Shown in pieces: positions 10,194 to 20,827 of a DNA stretch of 20,990 nt. Under the pieces are notes generated by a model, which did not search any database, was not told where the DNA came from, and saw only the letters and a list, made by a program, of their open reading frames with translations. The stretch's first letter is position 1, and each line of letters opens with the position of its first letter. The translations under genes were made by a program, and so were the position numbers. Origin of the DNA: a virus; IMG/VR virus record IMGVR_UViG_3300006108_000073, positions 1-20,990 of that record; one strand, 5' to 3'.

Positions 10194-10527
10194 TATTAGC
10201 CTCACCTTCTTTATCAAGTTGCGGAATAGACTTATCATTCACATGATTTTCAACCAAAAGCAAATAACGACGTAAGTCACGAATATCATCGATAATACCC
10301 TCAGAACGAAGGTCAGCACAGATTGCTTGAAAGATATCATAATTGTACTTCTTGACGTGATTCTCAAGGCGATCCCATTTACGTGCTAGCATCATGAAAG
10401 CGCCAACCCCACCTCGCTTTTTCCATGAATCACCATAAGATTGCTCAGCTTTGACTAAGCCCCTGATATCAGCCGATGTGACACCGTTCAAACCTTTCTC
10501 TAAATCAGACATAGCTTTTTGCGACAT
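10168..10527 (-). CDS. Small helical protein, possibly MazG/Nmad1-like
   Basis: 119 residues, largely helical. SYGDSWKKRGG (30-40), ARKWDRLENHV (48-58) and DDIRDLRRYLLLVE (80-93) give a pattern like small phage all-alpha NTP-pyrophosphohydrolase or nucleotide-modification-associated (DUF1599/Nmad1) proteins: YGD.W, then K..R, then an acidic helix ending in DI.D. I do not see the full EExxE...ExxD set of MazG, so catalysis is uncertain. AAGGAG lies seven bases before ATG. It overlaps the HD gene by 23 bases, and that neighbour supports a role in nucleotide pools. Confidence 0.5.
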   Translation of the reverse strand: MSQKAMSDLEKGLNGVTSADIRGLVKAEQSYGDSWKKRGGVGAFMMLARKWDRLENHVKKYNYDIFQAICADLRSEGIIDDIRDLRRYLLLVENHVNDKSIPQLDKEGEANSGYTNQDR

Positions 10528-11026
10528 ACTTACGCTCCTTAATTAAATTTTCCAACAGAATCAACCCTTGCTTATGCTCTTTTAGAGTTCTGAGGTAGTT
10601 TATACCCCGATCAAACACCTCACGCATCGTAGAGTTACCAAGCTCAATCTCATCTAAACAACGATACAAAAGATCTAGCATGTCAGCCCACTTCAGCGTC
10701 AACGCTTCCTCATCAGTTAGATGCGGGATCGTTAGATAATTATCAGCTAGCATCTGAGTTTCTAACTCATCGCAAGCGCCTTTCAATTGAGGTGACTGCC
10801 ATTTAGCTGTAGCGGGAACATCGCCCGTCCACTGCTCAGCGGTATCGTGTAAGAGCGTAGCGTAGATCAAAGACTTACTTGGATTTGGATGTATCATAAG
10901 TAAGATGATCAAAACGTTAGCCGTATGTTCACCAACCGTATCAGTTGTCAGCATACGCCTAGTATGCCATCGTTTTACAGAGTTACCGTTACGAACGGTT
11001 TGGATTACGCTATGGGGTACATGCAT
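10505..11026 (-). CDS. HD-domain phosphohydrolase (YfbR-like 5'-nucleotidase)
   Basis: 173 residues with the HD set H34 (VGEHT), H60-D61 (LLHDTAEQ) and D115 (KWADMLD), plus R19-W20 and GDVPA as in YfbR-type deoxynucleoside 5'-monophosphatases. These metal enzymes remove phosphate from dNMPs in the cytoplasm; phage forms are thought to adjust nucleotide pools. The length is close to YfbR. AGGA precedes the ATG by about eight bases, and a candidate promoter (TATAAT 11056-11061) lies 30 bases upstream, so this gene probably starts its own transcript. Substrate is not readable from sequence; removal of a nucleotide that competes with a modified base is a possibility only. Confidence 0.75.
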   Translation of the reverse strand: MHVPHSVIQTVRNGNSVKRWHTRRMLTTDTVGEHTANVLIILLMIHPNPSKSLIYATLLHDTAEQWTGDVPATAKWQSPQLKGACDELETQMLADNYLTIPHLTDEEALTLKWADMLDLLYRCLDEIELGNSTMREVFDRGINYLRTLKEHKQGLILLENLIKERKYVAKSYV

Positions 11027-14343: not shown

Positions 14344-14368
14344 TTTTTAAAAATTATTTTTAAAAATT
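14344..14368. repeat. AT-only 12-base direct repeat
   Basis: TTTTTAAAAATT occurs at 14344-14355 and again at 14357-14368, one base apart. The second copy covers the stop codon of the 104-residue gene. A G-run (14337-14341) and T-run flank it. Such easily melted DNA beside the polymerase gene could help promoter opening or replication initiation, but no iteron set or origin protein was seen. Confidence 0.4.
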
Positions 14369-14674
14369 TAAACGTAGCTCACTGTAGGACAATTTGTTCT
14401 TATCCCATCTTAAAAGCAAGCAAGTGCCAAGCAACTCAGCTGCAACCGTGACGCATATAGAGCATAAAGCGGGATCGCCGGCCATCACTAGATAGTCATC
14501 AGGGTGCATGGAACGTAGTACGTTTCTAGCGTGCTCTATCGCTGCACGACCGTTAAAGTCTCTACCTATGGATGAAAACACGTGCCTAACGTCTCCATAC
14601 GCATCAGCAGCTGAATAATCTCGTCGCCTATCATAGCTGACAAGCCAAACTGTAGGGGTTCTAACTTCAGTCAT
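14360..14674 (-). CDS. Small conserved phage protein, function unknown
   Basis: 104 residues. VWLVSYDRRRDYSAADAYGD, then AAIEHARNVL, then GDPALCSICVTVAAE and a final LLRWDKNKLSYSELRLNF look strongly constrained and alpha/beta. Proteins with GDP...A...A and a closing LRWD...Y segment are common in phage replication regions, and I know of no assigned function. It overlaps the polymerase stop by ATGA with GGAGAA upstream, so it is translated with the polymerase. The stop lies in the AT-only direct repeat. Confidence 0.6.
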   Translation of the reverse strand: MTEVRTPTVWLVSYDRRRDYSAADAYGDVRHVFSSIGRDFNGRAAIEHARNVLRSMHPDDYLVMAGDPALCSICVTVAAELLGTCLLLRWDKNKLSYSELRLNF

Positions 14675-16467
14675 TTTATTTCTCCGTATATAAAACCGTG
14701 CTTAACTTCAGCCTTGACTGGTAACTCGGGCCACCACTTAGGCGGTGTTGACATTACCTGCTCAATGTAGTCTCTAGCGTCTTTAGCCTCAGCTTCATCA
14801 ACTACGCAAACGAGTTCATCGTGTACAGTTAAAGCGACAGGATAACTCTCATTCACGATAAGAAGTTGCTCCATAACGATATGCCTAGCCAGCGCCTGAA
14901 CAATGTTTTCAGTTATCAAACCGCCATAAATACCTGACCTACCTTCACCTCGAGCAGCGTAGCTATATCGGCGCTCGCTAGAACTGTAACTCAGATCAGG
15001 GTAGAACAAGGGTAAACCAGTTGGTAAATGTATTGTATTTTTACCAGTCATAACGTACACTTCAGTGCTGAGTGATCGCTTGATACCCTCAACAATGAGC
15101 GGTAAAGCCTTATCACAAGTATCCCAGAACTGGACTATCTTATCGTTTTTCTTTCTGTACGCGTTAATCGCCCGCTCACACATCTCCATTGATAAGTGCT
15201 TACCCTGCGTCCTTAAGAACTCAAAGAACGTTCTAGCGGACATACCGTAGCCCGCGCCTAGCACTGTTACCTTGCCTAACCAACGCTCATCTTCGTCAGC
15301 TTTAGTAATGGTTCTATCATAGATGAAAGACGCCATATCGCAGTACGGGTCTAACCCTTTGCGGAAAACCTCCATCAAGTCCTCTTGTCCAGCAACGCAA
15401 GCCAAGGCTCTAGCTTCAATTTGTGAGCTATCACCCACGACTAGAGCTTTTCCGGGAGGGGCGACAAGGCTCTTACGTAGCTTTGACCCGCGAGTCAAGT
15501 TCTGTAAGTTAATTCCTCCACCTCCGCTCATGCGACCGGTGTGAGCGCCATAATAAATAAGAGGTACAGGTAATAAACCGGTCTTACCAATCGCGCTCAA
15601 CCGCTGAGCTCTAGTCTGTTCAATAGTCGATTTCAATTTCAGTCTAGCGCTCACTATCGCTTGTACCCTAACGTCCTCATGTTCCAATAGATCCGTGATA
15701 CCTTTGTCCTGCTTGGAAAAAGCGTAAGTCGGCTTACCAGTTCTAGGACTAGTCTTCATTGGAGGTTCAACGCCTAAGTTTCTAAGCGCTTCAGCAAACT
15801 TAGGGTTTGACATGATAACCTCTATCGCTATACCGGCATCTTTAAGCATCTGTTCTCGACGCTCATCTAGCTCAACAACGTACTTGTCTAGCATCTCATA
15901 GTCAACGGCGAGCATAGGTCTAGTGACTGCTTTAATTGTCCATTGTAGTAATAGAAACTCAAACTTAGGAAAATTCTGTATCAGAGTATCATAAATTCTT
16001 TTTGTCAAGTCAACGTCTCGAATACAGTACTCGCCTAAGATCTCACGCTCATAGTCTTGCAAGTCCTCTAGGCGCTTACCCTTAGAAACGGATAGCCCGT
16101 CTAGCTTCTCACCGAATCCAAGGTGTTTTGCGACAGAATTAAGACTGTAAGAATTCAAACGAAGTTGCGACCGCGCTAACCCTAACGTATCCGTGATCTG
16201 AGTAGGAAACCAATTGTAATGCCTTGCCGCGATGGCTCCATCAAACTGAGCATTATGACAGATAGCGCGAACTTTAGACCCGTAGTGCTTGAAGGCTTTA
16301 CCAATGTCCTCACCCCAAGCTAGATGCGTAGGCTCGTCGTTAAGTTTGAACGAACAGCAAATAGCTTGGAACCTCGAGTCTCGAATGTACTCGGTTGAGG
16401 TCATCTTTGATAACGAATATGATGCTGGATCGTAGTACGTTTCAAAGTCTAGTGTAAGTGTATCCAT
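14671..16467 (-). CDS. DNA polymerase, family A, with 3'-5' exonuclease
   Basis: 598 residues from ATG at 16467, which overlaps the preceding TGA (TGATG); a frame extending to 16506 is unlikely. Exonuclease: D7-F-E9, N72..D76 (HNAQFD) and Y147..D151. Polymerase: HTGRMSG (309-315), motif A VGDSSQIEAR with D346, O-helix R395...K399...Y407, and motif C VHDELV with D550. No 5' nuclease domain is present, as usual for phage replicases. The residue matching E. coli Phe762/T7 Tyr526 is Leu403. It would be the phage replicase, placed between base-modification and recombination genes. Confidence 0.9.
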   Translation of the reverse strand: MDTLTLDFETYYDPASYSLSKMTSTEYIRDSRFQAICCSFKLNDEPTHLAWGEDIGKAFKHYGSKVRAICHNAQFDGAIAARHYNWFPTQITDTLGLARSQLRLNSYSLNSVAKHLGFGEKLDGLSVSKGKRLEDLQDYEREILGEYCIRDVDLTKRIYDTLIQNFPKFEFLLLQWTIKAVTRPMLAVDYEMLDKYVVELDERREQMLKDAGIAIEVIMSNPKFAEALRNLGVEPPMKTSPRTGKPTYAFSKQDKGITDLLEHEDVRVQAIVSARLKLKSTIEQTRAQRLSAIGKTGLLPVPLIYYGAHTGRMSGGGGINLQNLTRGSKLRKSLVAPPGKALVVGDSSQIEARALACVAGQEDLMEVFRKGLDPYCDMASFIYDRTITKADEDERWLGKVTVLGAGYGMSARTFFEFLRTQGKHLSMEMCERAINAYRKKNDKIVQFWDTCDKALPLIVEGIKRSLSTEVYVMTGKNTIHLPTGLPLFYPDLSYSSSERRYSYAARGEGRSGIYGGLITENIVQALARHIVMEQLLIVNESYPVALTVHDELVCVVDEAEAKDARDYIEQVMSTPPKWWPELPVKAEVKHGFIYGEIK

Positions 16468-17453
16468 CACTTGTCGTTTTCTTTTGGAGTGAGCCACGCT
16501 TTGCAAGCAGCACGCCAGTCGGTTGCTTTAATACTGTCAACGTAGATCAAACCGTTACGCGCTCTTTTATGCTGCCACCAAACCATAGCCATCGGCTGAG
16601 CAACGTCTTGGAAGAACTGAGTCTTATAAATGTGTTCGTCTTGCGGGTCGAGCATGAAACTTTCTAAGTCTTTTTTCCAGTCATTGTGATCGCAGTTATC
16701 CATTAGCGGATAGGGTTTTACGGCGAGTTCAACGTAATCGGACTCATAATAATCCAAGGGTACGTACGAAGTGTCTTTGACTTTATCCCAAACTTCTAAA
16801 TCCGTATAGACGTGCAAAGAGTCTGAAACCTGAGTGTAAGGACCGACCTTGTAACCGCTTCTAGCAGCAACGTACTCTTGAAGCATACTAAAATGCACGA
16901 CGTTAGCGCCTAGCTTACCGTACAATAGATCGTTTGATCTGCAGCAAACTATCATGTATAGCTGCCCGTCACGCACCTTCCAATAGATATGAGTGTTGCA
17001 GGGGTGATCGAGTTTGTTTTCACCTAGATCTTTTTTAGCGTCCCACATCGTAGTGACGACGCGTCGGTCCTCAGGATTACGCTTCAATAGCTCAATCGCG
17101 TTTTCAAGTTGATCAAACTCTTGACCGTGCCTCAAACGATAGCCGTAAGCGCCGTAGAACGTATCGCCGTCATCGCTATACTTTTTCATCTGAGAGTTGA
17201 AGTAATCTAGGAATTCAACATCGCGGTACCCGCCGATAATCCAAAGCCCTTCCATACAATGAAAGAACGGATTACAGTTACGGGCTTCGTTGAATAAGAC
17301 GCGCTCCATGGGTTTAGCGTAGGTAGTGGCTACCGGCTCGCTAAATTCAATCACTGGACCATTTCTAGAGTTACGGGGCACTCCAGCAGTTTTAATACCG
17401 TTCACTTCAAGAGGGAAGGCGTGGTTTACATTTCTTACGTTATAGGCTATCAC
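16467..17453 (-). CDS. Thymidylate synthase homologue, probably dUMP hydroxymethylase
   Basis: 328 residues. Thymidylate synthase landmarks: E68, R130-R131, catalytic C152 (DHPCNTH), R172-S173-N174-D175, N184 (GANVVHF), H214 and Y216 (DSLHVY). Asn184 matches the residue that reads uracil (Asn177 in E. coli ThyA; Asp in dCMP hydroxymethylases), so dUMP is the likely substrate. The usual ThyA C-terminus with its PHP.I and final Val/Ile is missing; the protein ends with a Trp-rich DWRAACKAWL segment. Adjacent base-modification genes favour 5-hydroxymethyl-dUMP over dTMP as product, but sequence alone cannot decide. The start is GTG, five bases after AAGGAG. Confidence 0.75.
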   Translation of the reverse strand: MIAYNVRNVNHAFPLEVNGIKTAGVPRNSRNGPVIEFSEPVATTYAKPMERVLFNEARNCNPFFHCMEGLWIIGGYRDVEFLDYFNSQMKKYSDDGDTFYGAYGYRLRHGQEFDQLENAIELLKRNPEDRRVVTTMWDAKKDLGENKLDHPCNTHIYWKVRDGQLYMIVCCRSNDLLYGKLGANVVHFSMLQEYVAARSGYKVGPYTQVSDSLHVYTDLEVWDKVKDTSYVPLDYYESDYVELAVKPYPLMDNCDHNDWKKDLESFMLDPQDEHIYKTQFFQDVAQPMAMVWWQHKRARNGLIYVDSIKATDWRAACKAWLTPKENDK

Positions 17454-17458
17454 ATGGG

Positions 17459-17464
17459 CTCCTT
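17459..17464 (-). promoter_or_regulatory. Shine-Dalgarno AAGGAG that fixes a GTG start
   Basis: AAGGAG on the minus strand, five bases before GTG 17453-17451 of the thymidylate synthase homologue. It overlaps the stop codon of the upstream helical-protein gene, which suggests coupled translation. The nearby ATG reads into TGA and cannot be used. Confidence 0.65.
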
Positions 17465-18359
17465 AAAATGCAGTTTCGGGGGAATAGTTGGCACGGGGAC
17501 GACCGCCATTAGATGCGCGGACATACTTATCAAACTCACACATGCAGTTCTGCCAGTCGTGCAATGTAAGAGTGCTAAGATCGATTGTAGCCCACCCTTT
17601 GGCGAGCTCTAGCGTTTCCATCAGTTCTTCATTAAAAGTATCCTGATGCGCTATCTGTTCTAACGGTCTGCCGTAAATACGGTTTAGACCTCTAGTGGAT
17701 CCAGGACCGATAGGCGCGAATGAATAGAGGTCTTTTGCCTCTTTTAGTAAGTGCGAATACGTCATATCAGCTACAGCTTGTCCTGCCATGAAGGTGCCCC
17801 ACCCATAAACACCCTTAAAAAGCGCCAAAACTTCCTCTATGGAGCGATCTTTAGGCTTCGTGTGGGTTAGGTAATGGGGTATAGTTTCGTTGGAAAATAG
17901 AGGTTCTAGCATGTTTTTAGCGATAAAATACCCTTTTCCCATGCCTTTAGGTATGTTACGGCCAGTAATTAGGTAAGCGCCTGTCCAAGTTTTATCACCT
18001 CTAGCCATACGTGAATCGATTATGTTTCCAAACGCCGTAGCGCTGAATGAATCGACCGGCCACTCACCCTTTTCCATGATTTCAGCTATCGTTGGAGGCC
18101 AGTTGATGTAACGCGCGATGCAAAGCATAATCCAAAGCCAATCGTGGTCTTTGTACTGACCTATGATGTTCTGAACAATCCAAGCGGATACACGATCGTC
18201 TATACGGTGGATATTACAGAAGCGGTACTTCTTTAAAATCTCGTCCTCAGTCCAAGGTTCTTTTTGTGTAGGGTCTATGATTTTATTGTACAAGATGTTC
18301 TCACGCTCGCTTACAAAATAAGCCATCTTGCGTATCATATTATTCTTAGTACTAAACAT
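17463..18359 (-). CDS. DNA base hypermodification protein (5-hmdU kinase helical-domain type)
   Basis: 298 residues, mostly helical. EPWTEDEILKKYRF (34-47) running into CNIHRIDDRVSAWI, GWGTFMAGQAVADMTY (186-201) and PIGPGSTRGLNR (216-227) match the pattern I know from phage proteins named 5-hmdU DNA kinase helical domain or alpha-glutamyl/putrescinyl thymine pyrophosphorylase. That glycosylase-like family was linked by genome context to thymine hypermodification. Here the helical part is a separate protein, and two P-loop kinases are encoded just upstream (eight-base overlap). Its likely role is recognition of hmdU in DNA or replacement of the pyrophosphate-activated group; which of these is unknown. 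Confidence 0.7.
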   Translation of the reverse strand: MFSTKNNMIRKMAYFVSERENILYNKIIDPTQKEPWTEDEILKKYRFCNIHRIDDRVSAWIVQNIIGQYKDHDWLWIMLCIARYINWPPTIAEIMEKGEWPVDSFSATAFGNIIDSRMARGDKTWTGAYLITGRNIPKGMGKGYFIAKNMLEPLFSNETIPHYLTHTKPKDRSIEEVLALFKGVYGWGTFMAGQAVADMTYSHLLKEAKDLYSFAPIGPGSTRGLNRIYGRPLEQIAHQDTFNEELMETLELAKGWATIDLSTLTLHDWQNCMCEFDKYVRASNGGRPRANYSPETAF

Positions 18360-18912
18360 TGTAACCGAGCTCCCGTAAAGCGATAGGTACGGCTTCGTCT
18401 GAACTAACCCAGTGAGGCTTTAGACCGGCAGCGTACAGTTTTCTAGCTGATGAAATATTCTTTTTATCGTTTGTCAATATGTTGTCAGTCTTAGCGATAG
18501 GGGGCTTACCTTCAACCGCACGGCGAGCGTTCACGTTAGCCACGCACTGCTCGAACGGCGTACTAAGACAGATGGGGACAAGACGAGCTCCAATCATTTT
18601 TAGTCTAGAGTTCAGTATCATTGTCGGTTCAAACACGTTTCCAACGATAACGCCCTCATACAAGACGTTTGTATACTCAGCTGCCTCGACGACCGCGTCC
18701 CAAACCATTTGAGGTGTTTTAATCGTATCACATCCACCGGTAGGGCGATCGTACTTACCAAGGGCTACAAAAGTTTTAAACACGTTTAACAGCACGCCAT
18801 TGCTAGCTTCAGCCGTCTTTATGAAATCCGGAGCTGCATGCTCCATGATACGCTTAGCAACCCAAGTCTTGCCTGCGCCGTTGCTTCCGCGTATAGAAAT
18901 TACATTATGCAT
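18352..18912 (-). CDS. P-loop kinase, 5-hmdU DNA kinase type (copy 1)
   Basis: 186 residues. Walker A GSNGAGKT (9-16), LGKYDRPTGGCDTIKT (51-66) and LYEGVIVG (84-91, E86) match the small P-loop kinases tied to 5-hydroxymethyl-dU hypermodification, which activate hmdU within DNA by adding phosphate or pyrophosphate. The GGCD.I segment after GKYD is the most specific part. It lacks a separate helical domain, which the next gene seems to supply. No clear Shine-Dalgarno precedes the ATG; a TATAAT box lies 29 bases upstream. It is a tandem homologue of the following upstream gene, sharing layout but not close sequence. Confidence 0.7.
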   Translation of the reverse strand: MHNVISIRGSNGAGKTWVAKRIMEHAAPDFIKTAEASNGVLLNVFKTFVALGKYDRPTGGCDTIKTPQMVWDAVVEAAEYTNVLYEGVIVGNVFEPTMILNSRLKMIGARLVPICLSTPFEQCVANVNARRAVEGKPPIAKTDNILTNDKKNISSARKLYAAGLKPHWVSSDEAVPIALRELGYNV

Positions 18913-18936
18913 ATTGATCGATTCGTTAATTAAAGT

Positions 18937-18948
18937 TTAAATTATAAC
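18937..18948 (-). promoter_or_regulatory. Candidate internal promoter GTTATAATTTAA between the two kinases
   Basis: TATAAT on the minus strand (18946-18941) overlaps the last codons of kinase copy 2 and stands 29 bases before the ATG of copy 1. CGTTA (18924-18928) and TAACG (18945-18949) form an imperfect inverted repeat around it, like the site at 14306-14333. It could let copy 1 and the genes after it be expressed apart from copy 2. Confidence 0.4.
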
Positions 18949-19530
18949 GTTCTCAGCTGCTTCTTTCATCCCAATGAGGTCAAGGCTTATAGCTACAGCG
19001 TCACGCTGGCTAACTACCCTCGCATCATAGCCATTTGCCTTTAATTTAGCATGAGCCAACTCAACGGCTCTGTACTTAGGAATCAAAGATTTCTTAGGAT
19101 CGAAAGGCTTTTCATTACCAACGATGGCGCGTCTTTTCAGCGTTTGTTCTATGCACTTTTCTTTAGGCGTATCTAAAGTCAACGCATGAAACTGAGAGCT
19201 CTCAGAGCACGCGGCAGCGATATCCATTGTCAGCTGTTGTAATCCAGAAAGAAGCAAGCCCTCCATGACAACATGCGCATACATAGAGACTTCGGATAGG
19301 GCTTCAACTAAATCACGAACATTCTTTACACGATCAACCCCACCTGAGGCAGCGCTATCATACTTGCCTATAAAGATAACAGGCGTCTTGTCCGGCGTTC
19401 TGTATACATGAGTGAAAACGCCGTTTGTAGTCGTGTAATCACGCACGTGGGTGAGTCTAGACATAATAGCACGAACGGCGGTCGTTTTACCGCTACCGTT
19501 CGTACCCCTGATATTGATTATGTGATTCAT
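18937..19530 (-). CDS. P-loop kinase, 5-hmdU DNA kinase type (copy 2)
   Basis: 197 residues. Walker A GTNGSGKT (9-16), IGKYDSAASGGVDRVK (54-69) and VMEGLLLSG (88-96) line up with copy 1 at nearly the same spacing, so the two are paralogues. Here the GGCD motif reads GGVD, and the tail is longer. It could act on a different form of the substrate (free nucleotide versus DNA, or first versus second phosphate), or be a diverged spare. The ATG overlaps the upstream stop (ATGA), and its end overlaps a candidate promoter for copy 1. Confidence 0.7.
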   Translation of the reverse strand: MNHIINIRGTNGSGKTTAVRAIMSRLTHVRDYTTTNGVFTHVYRTPDKTPVIFIGKYDSAASGGVDRVKNVRDLVEALSEVSMYAHVVMEGLLLSGLQQLTMDIAAACSESSQFHALTLDTPKEKCIEQTLKRRAIVGNEKPFDPKKSLIPKYRAVELAHAKLKANGYDARVVSQRDAVAISLDLIGMKEAAENVII

Positions 19531-20300
19531 GAAATGATTTCCGTATCGAAAGGTTCTTCAGGCATGTGTTTTAAAATTTCATCAGCCACGAAGCCGTAGC
19601 CGGTTAAGGCTTGTCGCTTGTCAACGATGTCTGCACCGATAGGCTTACCGTTCTTATAGTAGCCTTTGATCATGCAGGCGATAGTTTCAGCTTCCGCCAC
19701 GCCGCAGTCTCGAGTGTAGCGTGGGGGCGCTTTCAAGTACTTGATTTGATCGACTACTTGTAGAAGCGCTTTATCGGAGGGCACTCCCGGAAATATGATC
19801 TCTAGACCTTGCACTGGCAACTGAACCATATGCTTCTCAGCGCCGGTCCAATCAACATCATATCCGAACACAGCCTCACGCAAGTCCATACACTTCCAAG
19901 AGAAGTATGTACCTATTTGAGGGATGTTACCTTTCAAAAGCTTCATGAATGATGGTTGCATGCAGGCAGAAAAGAAGTTTTCGGGGGTTTTGTACACGTT
20001 TACCCAGTGCTTCATCGCTTTTAAGCCTGATTGCCCCCTGAAATGACGTCTTTCAGCTGCTCTAGGAGCTTTATCATAGCAGTTAAAGAGCCCCTCCCAG
20101 AATTTATCACCGTTCAGTTCGCATACCTGAGAAGCTATACCCATGTGATAGTATGTGATGAACGCCGCACACCAACGCATTAGCATAGACTCTGGTATGT
20201 CGGATCTAGCTAACGCCACGTACACAGGATCTAGGTCGTCTGTACGAATGGTATGCTTGGCAAAGTCAGTCCAAGGAAGGTTAGGATCGTATGTAATCAT
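19527..20300 (-). CDS. Thymine-hypermodification transferase-like helical protein (aGPT-PPlase superfamily)
   Basis: 257 residues, helical. APRAAERRHFRG (78-89), PQIGTYFSWKCMDL (127-140), YDVDWTGAE and DCGVAEAET (198-206) match the pattern of phage alpha-glutamyl/putrescinyl thymine pyrophosphorylase-like or amino-acid:DNA transferase proteins, thought to replace the pyrophosphate of activated hmdU in DNA with an amine or amino acid. The IGT.F/Y...K..D segment also resembles the GWGTFMAGQAVADM part of the 298-residue protein, suggesting remote kinship. It lies one gene upstream of kinase copy 2, joined by ATGA overlaps on both sides. The substrate cannot be read from sequence. Confidence 0.65.
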   Translation of the reverse strand: MITYDPNLPWTDFAKHTIRTDDLDPVYVALARSDIPESMLMRWCAAFITYYHMGIASQVCELNGDKFWEGLFNCYDKAPRAAERRHFRGQSGLKAMKHWVNVYKTPENFFSACMQPSFMKLLKGNIPQIGTYFSWKCMDLREAVFGYDVDWTGAEKHMVQLPVQGLEIIFPGVPSDKALLQVVDQIKYLKAPPRYTRDCGVAEAETIACMIKGYYKNGKPIGADIVDKRQALTGYGFVADEILKHMPEEPFDTEIIS

Positions 20301-20827
20301 GAAAATTGCACCTCTTTCAAATAATCAGTAGCGTAGTCATTATAACCACTAAGCATGAACGCGGGGATACCGCCAATACGCCATTTAGCAAAACTAGACT
20401 TGTACTTGCGGTAATAGTTACGGTACGCGGTAATGGCGTCACCCTCAACGCGACAATCATCAGGCATAGCCTGAGGGGGCTCACGCCATAAGTATTTGCC
20501 TTTCATTAACGCCTCAGGGGGCTCAGCTAAAACACCTGTTATGTATTTCTCACAAGCATGACGACGGTTGTAACGTTTGAAGTACTCACGGCATAAGAAA
20601 ACGCCTAAGTGTTGTAGCCAATCGTATTGAACCTTGGACTCAGCAGCCCATATAACCGAGGGGTGATGGATGTGAGTGGGTTTGTATGGAACATTAGCAC
20701 CGTTACCATGCATGTGATGAACGGTACAAAGTATTTGAGCAGTTTCTAGCGACATTTTGACAACGTGTGAGTCACAATGCATGACGGCAGCTAGGGGAGC
20801 GGAATGATGTAGATAGAAGATATTCAT
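20297..20827 (-). CDS. Conserved phage protein, function unknown
   Basis: 176 residues from MNIFYLHHSA at 20827, preceded by AGGAG; a longer frame to 20980 is a shadow of the upstream gene. Conserved-looking blocks are MHCDSHVVKMSLETAQ, THIHHPSVIWAAES, LCREYFKRYNRRHA, EPPQAMPDDCR and AYRNYYRKYKSSFAKW. I recall this His/Cys-containing pattern from many phages, always without a solid function. The several His and acidic residues could bind metal. It overlaps the transferase-like gene by ATGA, so it may belong to the base-modification set. Confidence 0.65.
   Translation of the reverse strand: MNIFYLHHSAPLAAVMHCDSHVVKMSLETAQILCTVHHMHGNGANVPYKPTHIHHPSVIWAAESKVQYDWLQHLGVFLCREYFKRYNRRHACEKYITGVLAEPPEALMKGKYLWREPPQAMPDDCRVEGDAITAYRNYYRKYKSSFAKWRIGGIPAFMLSGYNDYATDYLKEVQFS

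Follow-up and report, generated by a model that had tools for sequence, protein, structure and literature searches.

Organization of the locus

The window analyzed here was a stretch of 20,990 nucleotides (positions 1–20,990) of the IMG/VR record IMGVR_UViG_3300006108_000073, which originates from an uncultivated phage. A cluster of minus-strand genes, transcribed in the order P6, ADDT, KinB, KinA, HMUDK_hel, TS and polymerase, was found in this window (Table 1). Judged by their protein families, five of the first six genes, encoding an amino acid:DNA transferase (ADDT), two kinases (KinB and KinA), an HMUDK_hel protein and a thymidylate synthase (TS) homologue, form a thymidine-hypermodification cassette based on 5-hydroxymethyl-2'-deoxyuridine (5-hmdU). 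Their Pfam matches were far beyond chance, and homologues of a TS-type deoxyuridine monophosphate (dUMP) hydroxymethylase, a 5-hmdU DNA kinase and an ADDT were found together.

Table 1. Positions of the genes discussed in the text (window numbering unless a locus is named)
Feature	Position	Strand	Family or remark
P6 (sixth gene, phrog_624 protein)	20297..20827	minus	in an operon with the cassette; possibly T4 endonuclease V-like
ADDT, amino acid:DNA transferase	19527..20300	minus	PF18724; homology to PaMx11 5-PmdU glycinyltransferase
KinB, 5-hmdU DNA kinase family, ADDT side	18937..19530	minus	PF18748
KinA, 5-hmdU DNA kinase family, HMUDK_hel side	18352..18912	minus	PF18748
HMUDK_hel protein (aGPT-PPlase1 type)	17463..18359	minus	PF18723; predicted DNA-glycosylase-like fold
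TS homologue, probable dUMP 5-hydroxymethylase	16467..17453	minus	PF00303, phrog_5131
Family A DNA polymerase with 3'-5' exonuclease	14671..16467	minus	PF00476, PF01612
YfbR-like HD 5'-deoxynucleotidase	10505..11026	minus	PF12917
250-aa LEVFCGFG protein (related loci)	L008:4893-5663, L011:5253-6023, L033:1928-2686, L036:363-1121, L039:2207-2971; also L010, L038

The initial annotation had described six consecutive overlapping or abutting genes, and all six were recovered as described, with overlaps of 4–8 nt or gaps of 9–24 nt (P6/ADDT −4, ADDT/KinB −4, KinB/KinA +24, KinA/HMUDK_hel −8, HMUDK_hel/TS +9 and TS/polymerase −1, minus denoting an overlap). Its dUMP-type TS homologue and two 5-hmdU-DNA-kinase-like proteins were borne out by PF00303, by Asn177 and by PF18748, which both kinases matched above the cut-off. 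The two proteins it had grouped as helical did fall into hypermodification families, but they were not two of a kind, one being an ADDT and the other an HMUDK_hel protein. Profile searches, which could have placed the proteins outside these families, returned the expected family for every core gene. The core cassette of the annotation was thus retained, whereas the YfbR-like gene had been missed.

All genes were under purifying selection. The ratio of nonsynonymous to synonymous polymorphism (pN/pS) was 0.07–0.09 for TS, 0.08–0.10 for KinA, 0.15–0.19 for KinB, about 0.15 for HMUDK_hel and 0.13–0.19 for ADDT.

Conservation of the cassette

A scan of IMG/VR returned 13 contigs with an HMUDK_hel protein of 54–88% identity, and the gene order from P6 to the polymerase was kept wherever the contig was long enough, in some cases with one or two extra open reading frames (ORFs). 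Three relatives were read whole: G001 (28.8 kb), G002 (51.6 kb, near-complete) and G004 (51.3 kb). A second scan, made with the neighbouring AAA protein, yielded 80 loci of mainly two architectures, the window clade and a sister clade. In the latter, whose AAA protein was 70–74% identical, a pyridoxal phosphate (PLP)-fold-like gene was followed by ADDT, a single kinase, HMUDK_hel, TS, the HD gene and a different DNA polymerase. The HMUDK_hel tree united both clades with moderate support (79/97). Since the ADDT of the sister clade was only 11–20% identical to that of the window clade, exchange of the transferase or its very fast change is likely. The polymerase, too, appears to have been exchanged inside the conserved operon, as judged from its family: the slot of the family A enzyme was occupied in the sister clade (L045:6728-8626 and other loci) by a phrog_1252 protein with weak family B matches.

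The TS homologue, the polymerase and the HD enzyme

The TS homologue matched PF00303 with 79.8 bits and phrog_5131 with 347.6 bits. Its best solved relative was the cytidine monophosphate 5-hydroxymethylase MilA (81.7 bits, compared with 57 for the best thymidylate synthase). The catalytic residues E58, C146, R166, D169, N177, H207 and Y209 (E. coli numbering) were kept. The residue at position 177 was Asn, typical of uracil, instead of the Asp of cytosine enzymes, and therefore uracil rather than cytosine was suggested as the substrate. W80 was lost and H147 was replaced by Asn (PCN motif), likewise in the TS homologues of the phages M6, PaMx11, P26218 and May; unlike these, E. coli ThyA, Aeh1 td and Goe3 had CH at positions 146–147. 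The protein is a probable dUMP 5-hydroxymethylase that would make hmdUMP in the first step of the pathway.

The family A polymerase matched PF00476 (92 bits) and PF01612 (27 bits); a DNA polymerase also lay close to the cassette in M6 and PaMx11. The HD protein matched PF12917 with 60 bits, and its best solved relative was E. coli YfbR (E 5e-5). A YfbR-like HD homologue adjoined TS in P26218, M6, PaMx11, Pam3, ctfPj964 and the sister clade. By this neighbourhood, the enzyme probably belongs to the pathway as a pool-clearing arm that removes dTMP.

The transferase and the two kinases

ADDT matched PF18724 with 37.4 bits against a cut-off of 26.2. Among solved structures, it matched 8z2m (E 3e-23), which the PDB lists as the 5-phosphomethyl-2'-deoxyuridine (5-PmdU) glycinyltransferase gp46 of phage PaMx11, and 25qc (E 2.8e-17). 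The nearest cultured homologue was that of Rhodoferax phage P26218 (36.6% identity). Given the homology to gp46, ADDT is expected with good confidence to displace the phosphate of 5-PmdU by an amino acid. By analogy, glycine is the most likely single amino acid, with about an even chance.

Both kinases exceeded the PF18748 cut-off of 27 bits (KinA 39.0, KinB 29.7), and both kept an intact P-loop (Walker A) and the invariant residues G9, N11, G12, G14, K15, D66 and E90. KinA carried LSTP or LNTP where KinB and the kinases of M6 and P26218 carried LDTP. A weak match of KinB to PF18747 was also recorded (E 0.076). KinB clustered with the P26218 kinase (tree support 90/80). KinA and KinB were 28% identical and formed separate starred clades, which speaks against a recent duplication, but a sister relationship of the two clades was not rejected by the approximately unbiased (AU) test (p = 0.25), so that either duplication or acquisition may lie behind the pair.

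The two-kinase layout was conserved within the window clade. At least two kinase matches were found in 7 of 67 further ADDT contigs. Two or more 5-hmdU-kinase-like proteins were backed by Pfam in L276, L288 and L294, although in both L276 and L294 one of the copies fell slightly below the cut-off; L283 had no such backing. The second kinase of L283 and the third of L288 matched generic AAA models only. In L288 (1614-3554), three P-loop kinases stood in succession between ADDT and HMUDK_hel. A single origin of two-kinase cassettes was rejected by AU tests for the HMUDK_hel-side (p 0.0025) and the ADDT-side kinases (p 0.016), on trees that contained long branches and with groups picked after the layouts had been seen. 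The phylogeny thus indicates that the layout recurs outside the clade with separate origins. Among the records of cultured phages, a search with either KinA or KinB matched one place per record.

The 5-hmdU DNA kinase was reported to be sequence-selective, acting at TG/TC sites with about 20% of 5-hmdU in SP8 DNA modified, and phosphorylation of 5-hmdU alone raised restriction resistance (PMC7653180, PMC6449724). In view of such selectivity, two kinases might be useful if their contexts differ.

The HMUDK_hel protein

HMUDK_hel matched PF18723 with 142 bits (E 3e-41, cut-off 25) and was 34% identical to ORF055 of M6; its residue D210 is invariant. Its AlphaFold model was of high quality, with a predicted local distance difference test score (pLDDT) of 90 and a predicted template modelling score (pTM) of 0.87. 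The best VIA-align match was the PaMx11 glycinyltransferase 8z2n (Z 10.8 over 226 residues), followed at Z 9.9 by the 8-oxoguanine glycosylase 3n0u and by DUF2419. A Z near 10 is merely suggestive for a helical protein; the stronger point was uniformity, as nearly all of the matches listed were glycinyltransferase, DUF2419 or helix-hairpin-helix DNA glycosylases. Foldseek gave no significant match for the model (best E 0.18), its top ranks being again the PaMx11 glycinyltransferase and 8-oxoguanine glycosylases, and hhalign showed no sequence-level homology to Nth, MutY, AlkA or ADDT. A DNA-glycosylase-like fold is thus predicted from the model.

The family is named as a kinase domain, and the protein adjoins KinA here. 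However, PF18723 was present while PF18724, PF18748 and PF18747 were not found in the whole records of Nodularia phage kac65v151, Brevibacterium phage LuckyBarnes and Glutamicibacter phage Montesquieu. In Delftia phage phiW-14, neither kinase model (PF18748, PF18747) was matched although its hmdU is phosphorylated, and therefore HMUDK_hel without kinase matches is only suggestive. The predicted fold and this occurrence without recognizable kinases suggest that the name may be a misnomer. HMUDK_hel was accompanied by TS in Montesquieu. In LuckyBarnes (L203:1747-5762), its neighbours were two glycosyltransferases and a long TS homologue, with no recognizable kinase or ADDT; this locus is possibly a glycosylated 5-hydroxymethylpyrimidine system that uses HMUDK_hel.

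The sixth gene and a small neighbour

The initial annotation had counted P6 as a member of the locus. On distribution, membership was rejected as improbable: P6 had relatives in 575 phage records (243 of them from Synechococcus phages), and of 80 viral contigs with such a relative, 71 lacked any hypermodification gene within 3 kb of it. P6 had no Pfam match and belonged to phrog_624. The only credible fold neighbour of its AlphaFold model (pLDDT 90.6) was T4 endonuclease V (1enj, Z 7.7 over 119 residues). The invariant His21–Glu28 pair has the spacing of H16–E23 in T4 endonuclease V, and two phage records annotated P6 relatives as T4 endonuclease V-like; no profile or sequence-level match to that family was obtained. 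The likeliest reading of P6 is a repair gene within a shared operon.

A small protein encoded after the polymerase (14360-14674) matched PF23992 (Phage Pam3 gp32-like) with 58.7 bits; it stays beside the AAA gene in both the window and the sister clade.

Search for tailoring enzymes

The initial annotation had noted the lack of a tailoring gene in the window, and this held and extended to near-complete relatives. No radical S-adenosylmethionine (radical-SAM) protein was found in 25 related records, with that of M6 detected as a positive control. A profile of the sister-clade PLP gene and phmmer queries (PLP and radical-SAM proteins of M6, flavin adenine dinucleotide (FAD) enzyme and acetyltransferase of PaMx11, glycosyltransferase of LuckyBarnes) gave no convincing match in the window or in G001, G002 and G004, although the queries from M6 and PaMx11 did find matches in other ADDT contigs. 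Hence, the PLP and radical-SAM pair of the M6-type pathway to 5-(2-aminoethyl)-2'-deoxyuridine (5-NedU) was absent from the window, G001, G002 and G004, and the FAD enzyme and acetyltransferase pair of the PaMx11-type pathway from the window and the relatives searched. A further 25 ORFs of G002 gave helicase, primase, terminase, lysozyme and ADP-ribosyltransferase domain matches and no tailoring family. One G002 ORF (L017-L019) matched ART-PolyVal, an ADP-ribosyltransferase in polyvalent proteins (E 5e-13).

A conserved protein of 250 aa with the methyltransferase-like motif LEVFCGFG was encoded directly before ADDT in seven window-clade loci (Table 1); it had no match in Pfam, PHROGs or the PDB sequences.

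Sets of ADDT, kinase, TS and HD genes without tailoring genes were present in the complete genomes of P26218 and ctfPj964 and in about 18 viral contigs, which suggests that a short pathway can suffice by itself.

Proposed pathway and alternative explanations

It was proposed that the locus probably directs 5-hydroxymethyluracil-based hypermodification of part of the thymidine in the phage DNA, to a bulkier base that carries an amino acid, with two kinases and no trimming. In this pathway, the TS homologue would, very probably, turn dUMP into hmdUMP. The YfbR-like enzyme would lower the dTMP and dTTP pool so that hmdUTP competes, a role considered somewhat better supported than its absence. By analogy with known systems, the polymerase would place hmdU opposite A. 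KinA and KinB would then phosphorylate the hydroxymethyl group in finished DNA in certain sequence contexts. The role of the second kinase may be to widen these contexts or to serve its own neighbouring DNA-binding partner; the two options together were given an even chance, the rest falling to redundancy or a different substrate. ADDT would flip out the phosphorylated base and swap the phosphate for the amino group of an amino acid, and HMUDK_hel would be a glycosylase-fold protein binding or acting on the modified base. Since genes for PLP, radical-SAM and FAD enzymes and for acetyltransferases were not recognized in the near-complete relative, an untailored amino-acid adduct on thymine, for example N-alpha-glycyl-thymine, is predicted as the final base, which is slightly favoured. 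The expected benefit would be restriction resistance.

Several points weigh against this proposal. Small ORFs of no recognized function remain, the host could supply trimming, and the completeness of G002 is unproved. The loss of W80 and the Cys-Asn motif suggest hydroxymethylation without proving it. ADDT is 31% identical to that of phiW-14, a phage with putrescinyl-thymine, and the chemistry proposed for the window phage is a prediction from its genes.

The best-surviving alternative, though an unlikely one, was that the cassette works as proposed but the base is further decarboxylated, cleaved or acylated, as in M6 and PaMx11, by an unrecognized enzyme from a small ORF, a missing genome end or the host. 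The well-studied M6 and PaMx11 loci do carry tailoring genes, a PLP-like gene precedes ADDT in the sister clade, and the LEVFCGFG protein holds that position in seven loci of the window clade. However, queries that matched other ADDT contigs found no such enzyme in the window or the three relatives, and minimal systems without tailoring genes exist.

The arrangement of the kinases allows another explanation, in which ADDT with KinB would produce one base and HMUDK_hel with KinA another. HMUDK_hel would then be a second base-flipping transferase, and the two kinase/base-flipping pairs would yield two hypermodified thymines, or one in two contexts, with an untrimmed adduct still the main product. 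Each kinase overlaps its neighbour (by 4 and 8 nt), the glycinyltransferase was the best match of the HMUDK_hel model, ADDT and HMUDK_hel each occur without the other, and in phage May the kinases near ADDT and near TS belong to different families. Yet a single kinase serves both proteins in M6, PaMx11 and the sister clade, the relation of HMUDK_hel to ADDT was not seen at the sequence level, and the HMUDK_hel-side kinases lack a single origin. Moreover, missing kinase matches elsewhere are weak evidence, given that phiW-14 also lacks them. This explanation was regarded as improbable.

Ordinary nucleotide metabolism, in which unrelated P-loop kinases would adjoin a thymidylate synthase of the usual kind and DNA would stay unmodified, was considered very improbable. 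TS folds and P-loops are widespread and the kinase Pfam scores were modest, but nucleotide metabolism has no known role for ADDT or HMUDK_hel, and these two matched none of 14 control genomes and kept a conserved order with the TS homologue. A decaying, inactive cassette, in favour of which nothing was found, is hardly credible in view of the absence of stop codons, the retained catalytic residues and pN/pS values of 0.07–0.19.

The proposed two-kinase pathway would represent a thymine-hypermodification system that is compact and contiguous and has no recognized tailoring genes; the phage lineage that carries it recurs in viral metagenomes. Two questions can be put to the test with it: the reason for which some phages retain a pair of 5-hmdU kinases, a layout of more than one origin, and the role of HMUDK_hel, which often lies nearby and whose designation as a kinase domain is poorly founded. 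Should the untrimmed adduct be confirmed, an amino acid would be added to DNA and a usable enzyme set for making such DNA would become available.

Comparison with known systems

A common 5-hmdU intermediate has been proposed for phages M6, ViI and phiW-14 (PMC6449724, PMC7653180). In phiW-14, which contains alpha-putrescinylthymine, a phosphorylated intermediate, HmPPUra, has been described (PMC5977210). Its homologues of ADDT (ORF109, 31%) and HMUDK_hel (ORF72, 29%) resemble the window proteins, but its genes are dispersed and neither PF18748 nor PF18747 was matched. In the ViI-like Klebsiella phage May (Ackermannviridae), a PF18748 kinase adjoins TS, a PF18747 kinase lies near ADDT, and HMUDK_hel is present; by these family matches, the two-kinase state has a precedent. 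In contrast to the window, the genes of Ackermannviridae are scattered over the genome and the second kinase is of the PF18747 family. Phage Vi01 reportedly contains 5-(2-aminoethoxy)methyl-2'-deoxyuridine (5-NeOmdU).

The podoviruses P26218 and ctfPj964 share the order ADDT, kinase, TS and HD without tailoring genes, and P26218 has the nearest cultured relatives of both ADDT and KinB; they differ in lacking HMUDK_hel and a second kinase. Pam3 also carries ADDT, according to both its annotation and the profile search.

The closest overall likeness in gene order was with M6 and PaMx11. The M6 locus for 5-NedU consists of ADDT, PLP, radical-SAM, kinase, HMUDK_hel, ORF56–57, TS, HD, further genes and the polymerase, and thus shares the order ADDT, kinase, HMUDK_hel, TS and polymerase as well as the YfbR-like enzyme. 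The PaMx11 locus (ADDT, FAD enzyme, acetyltransferase, kinase, HMUDK_hel, TS, HD, further genes, polymerase) has the common order, and its gp46 is homologous to the window ADDT. The difference lies between ADDT and the kinase, where M6 has the PLP (ORF52) and radical-SAM (ORF53) genes, PaMx11 the FAD-oxidoreductase and acetyltransferase genes, and the window its second kinase. Thymine hypermodification as protection against restriction is known; the new feature is a second kinase in the tailoring slot of a cassette without recognized tailoring.

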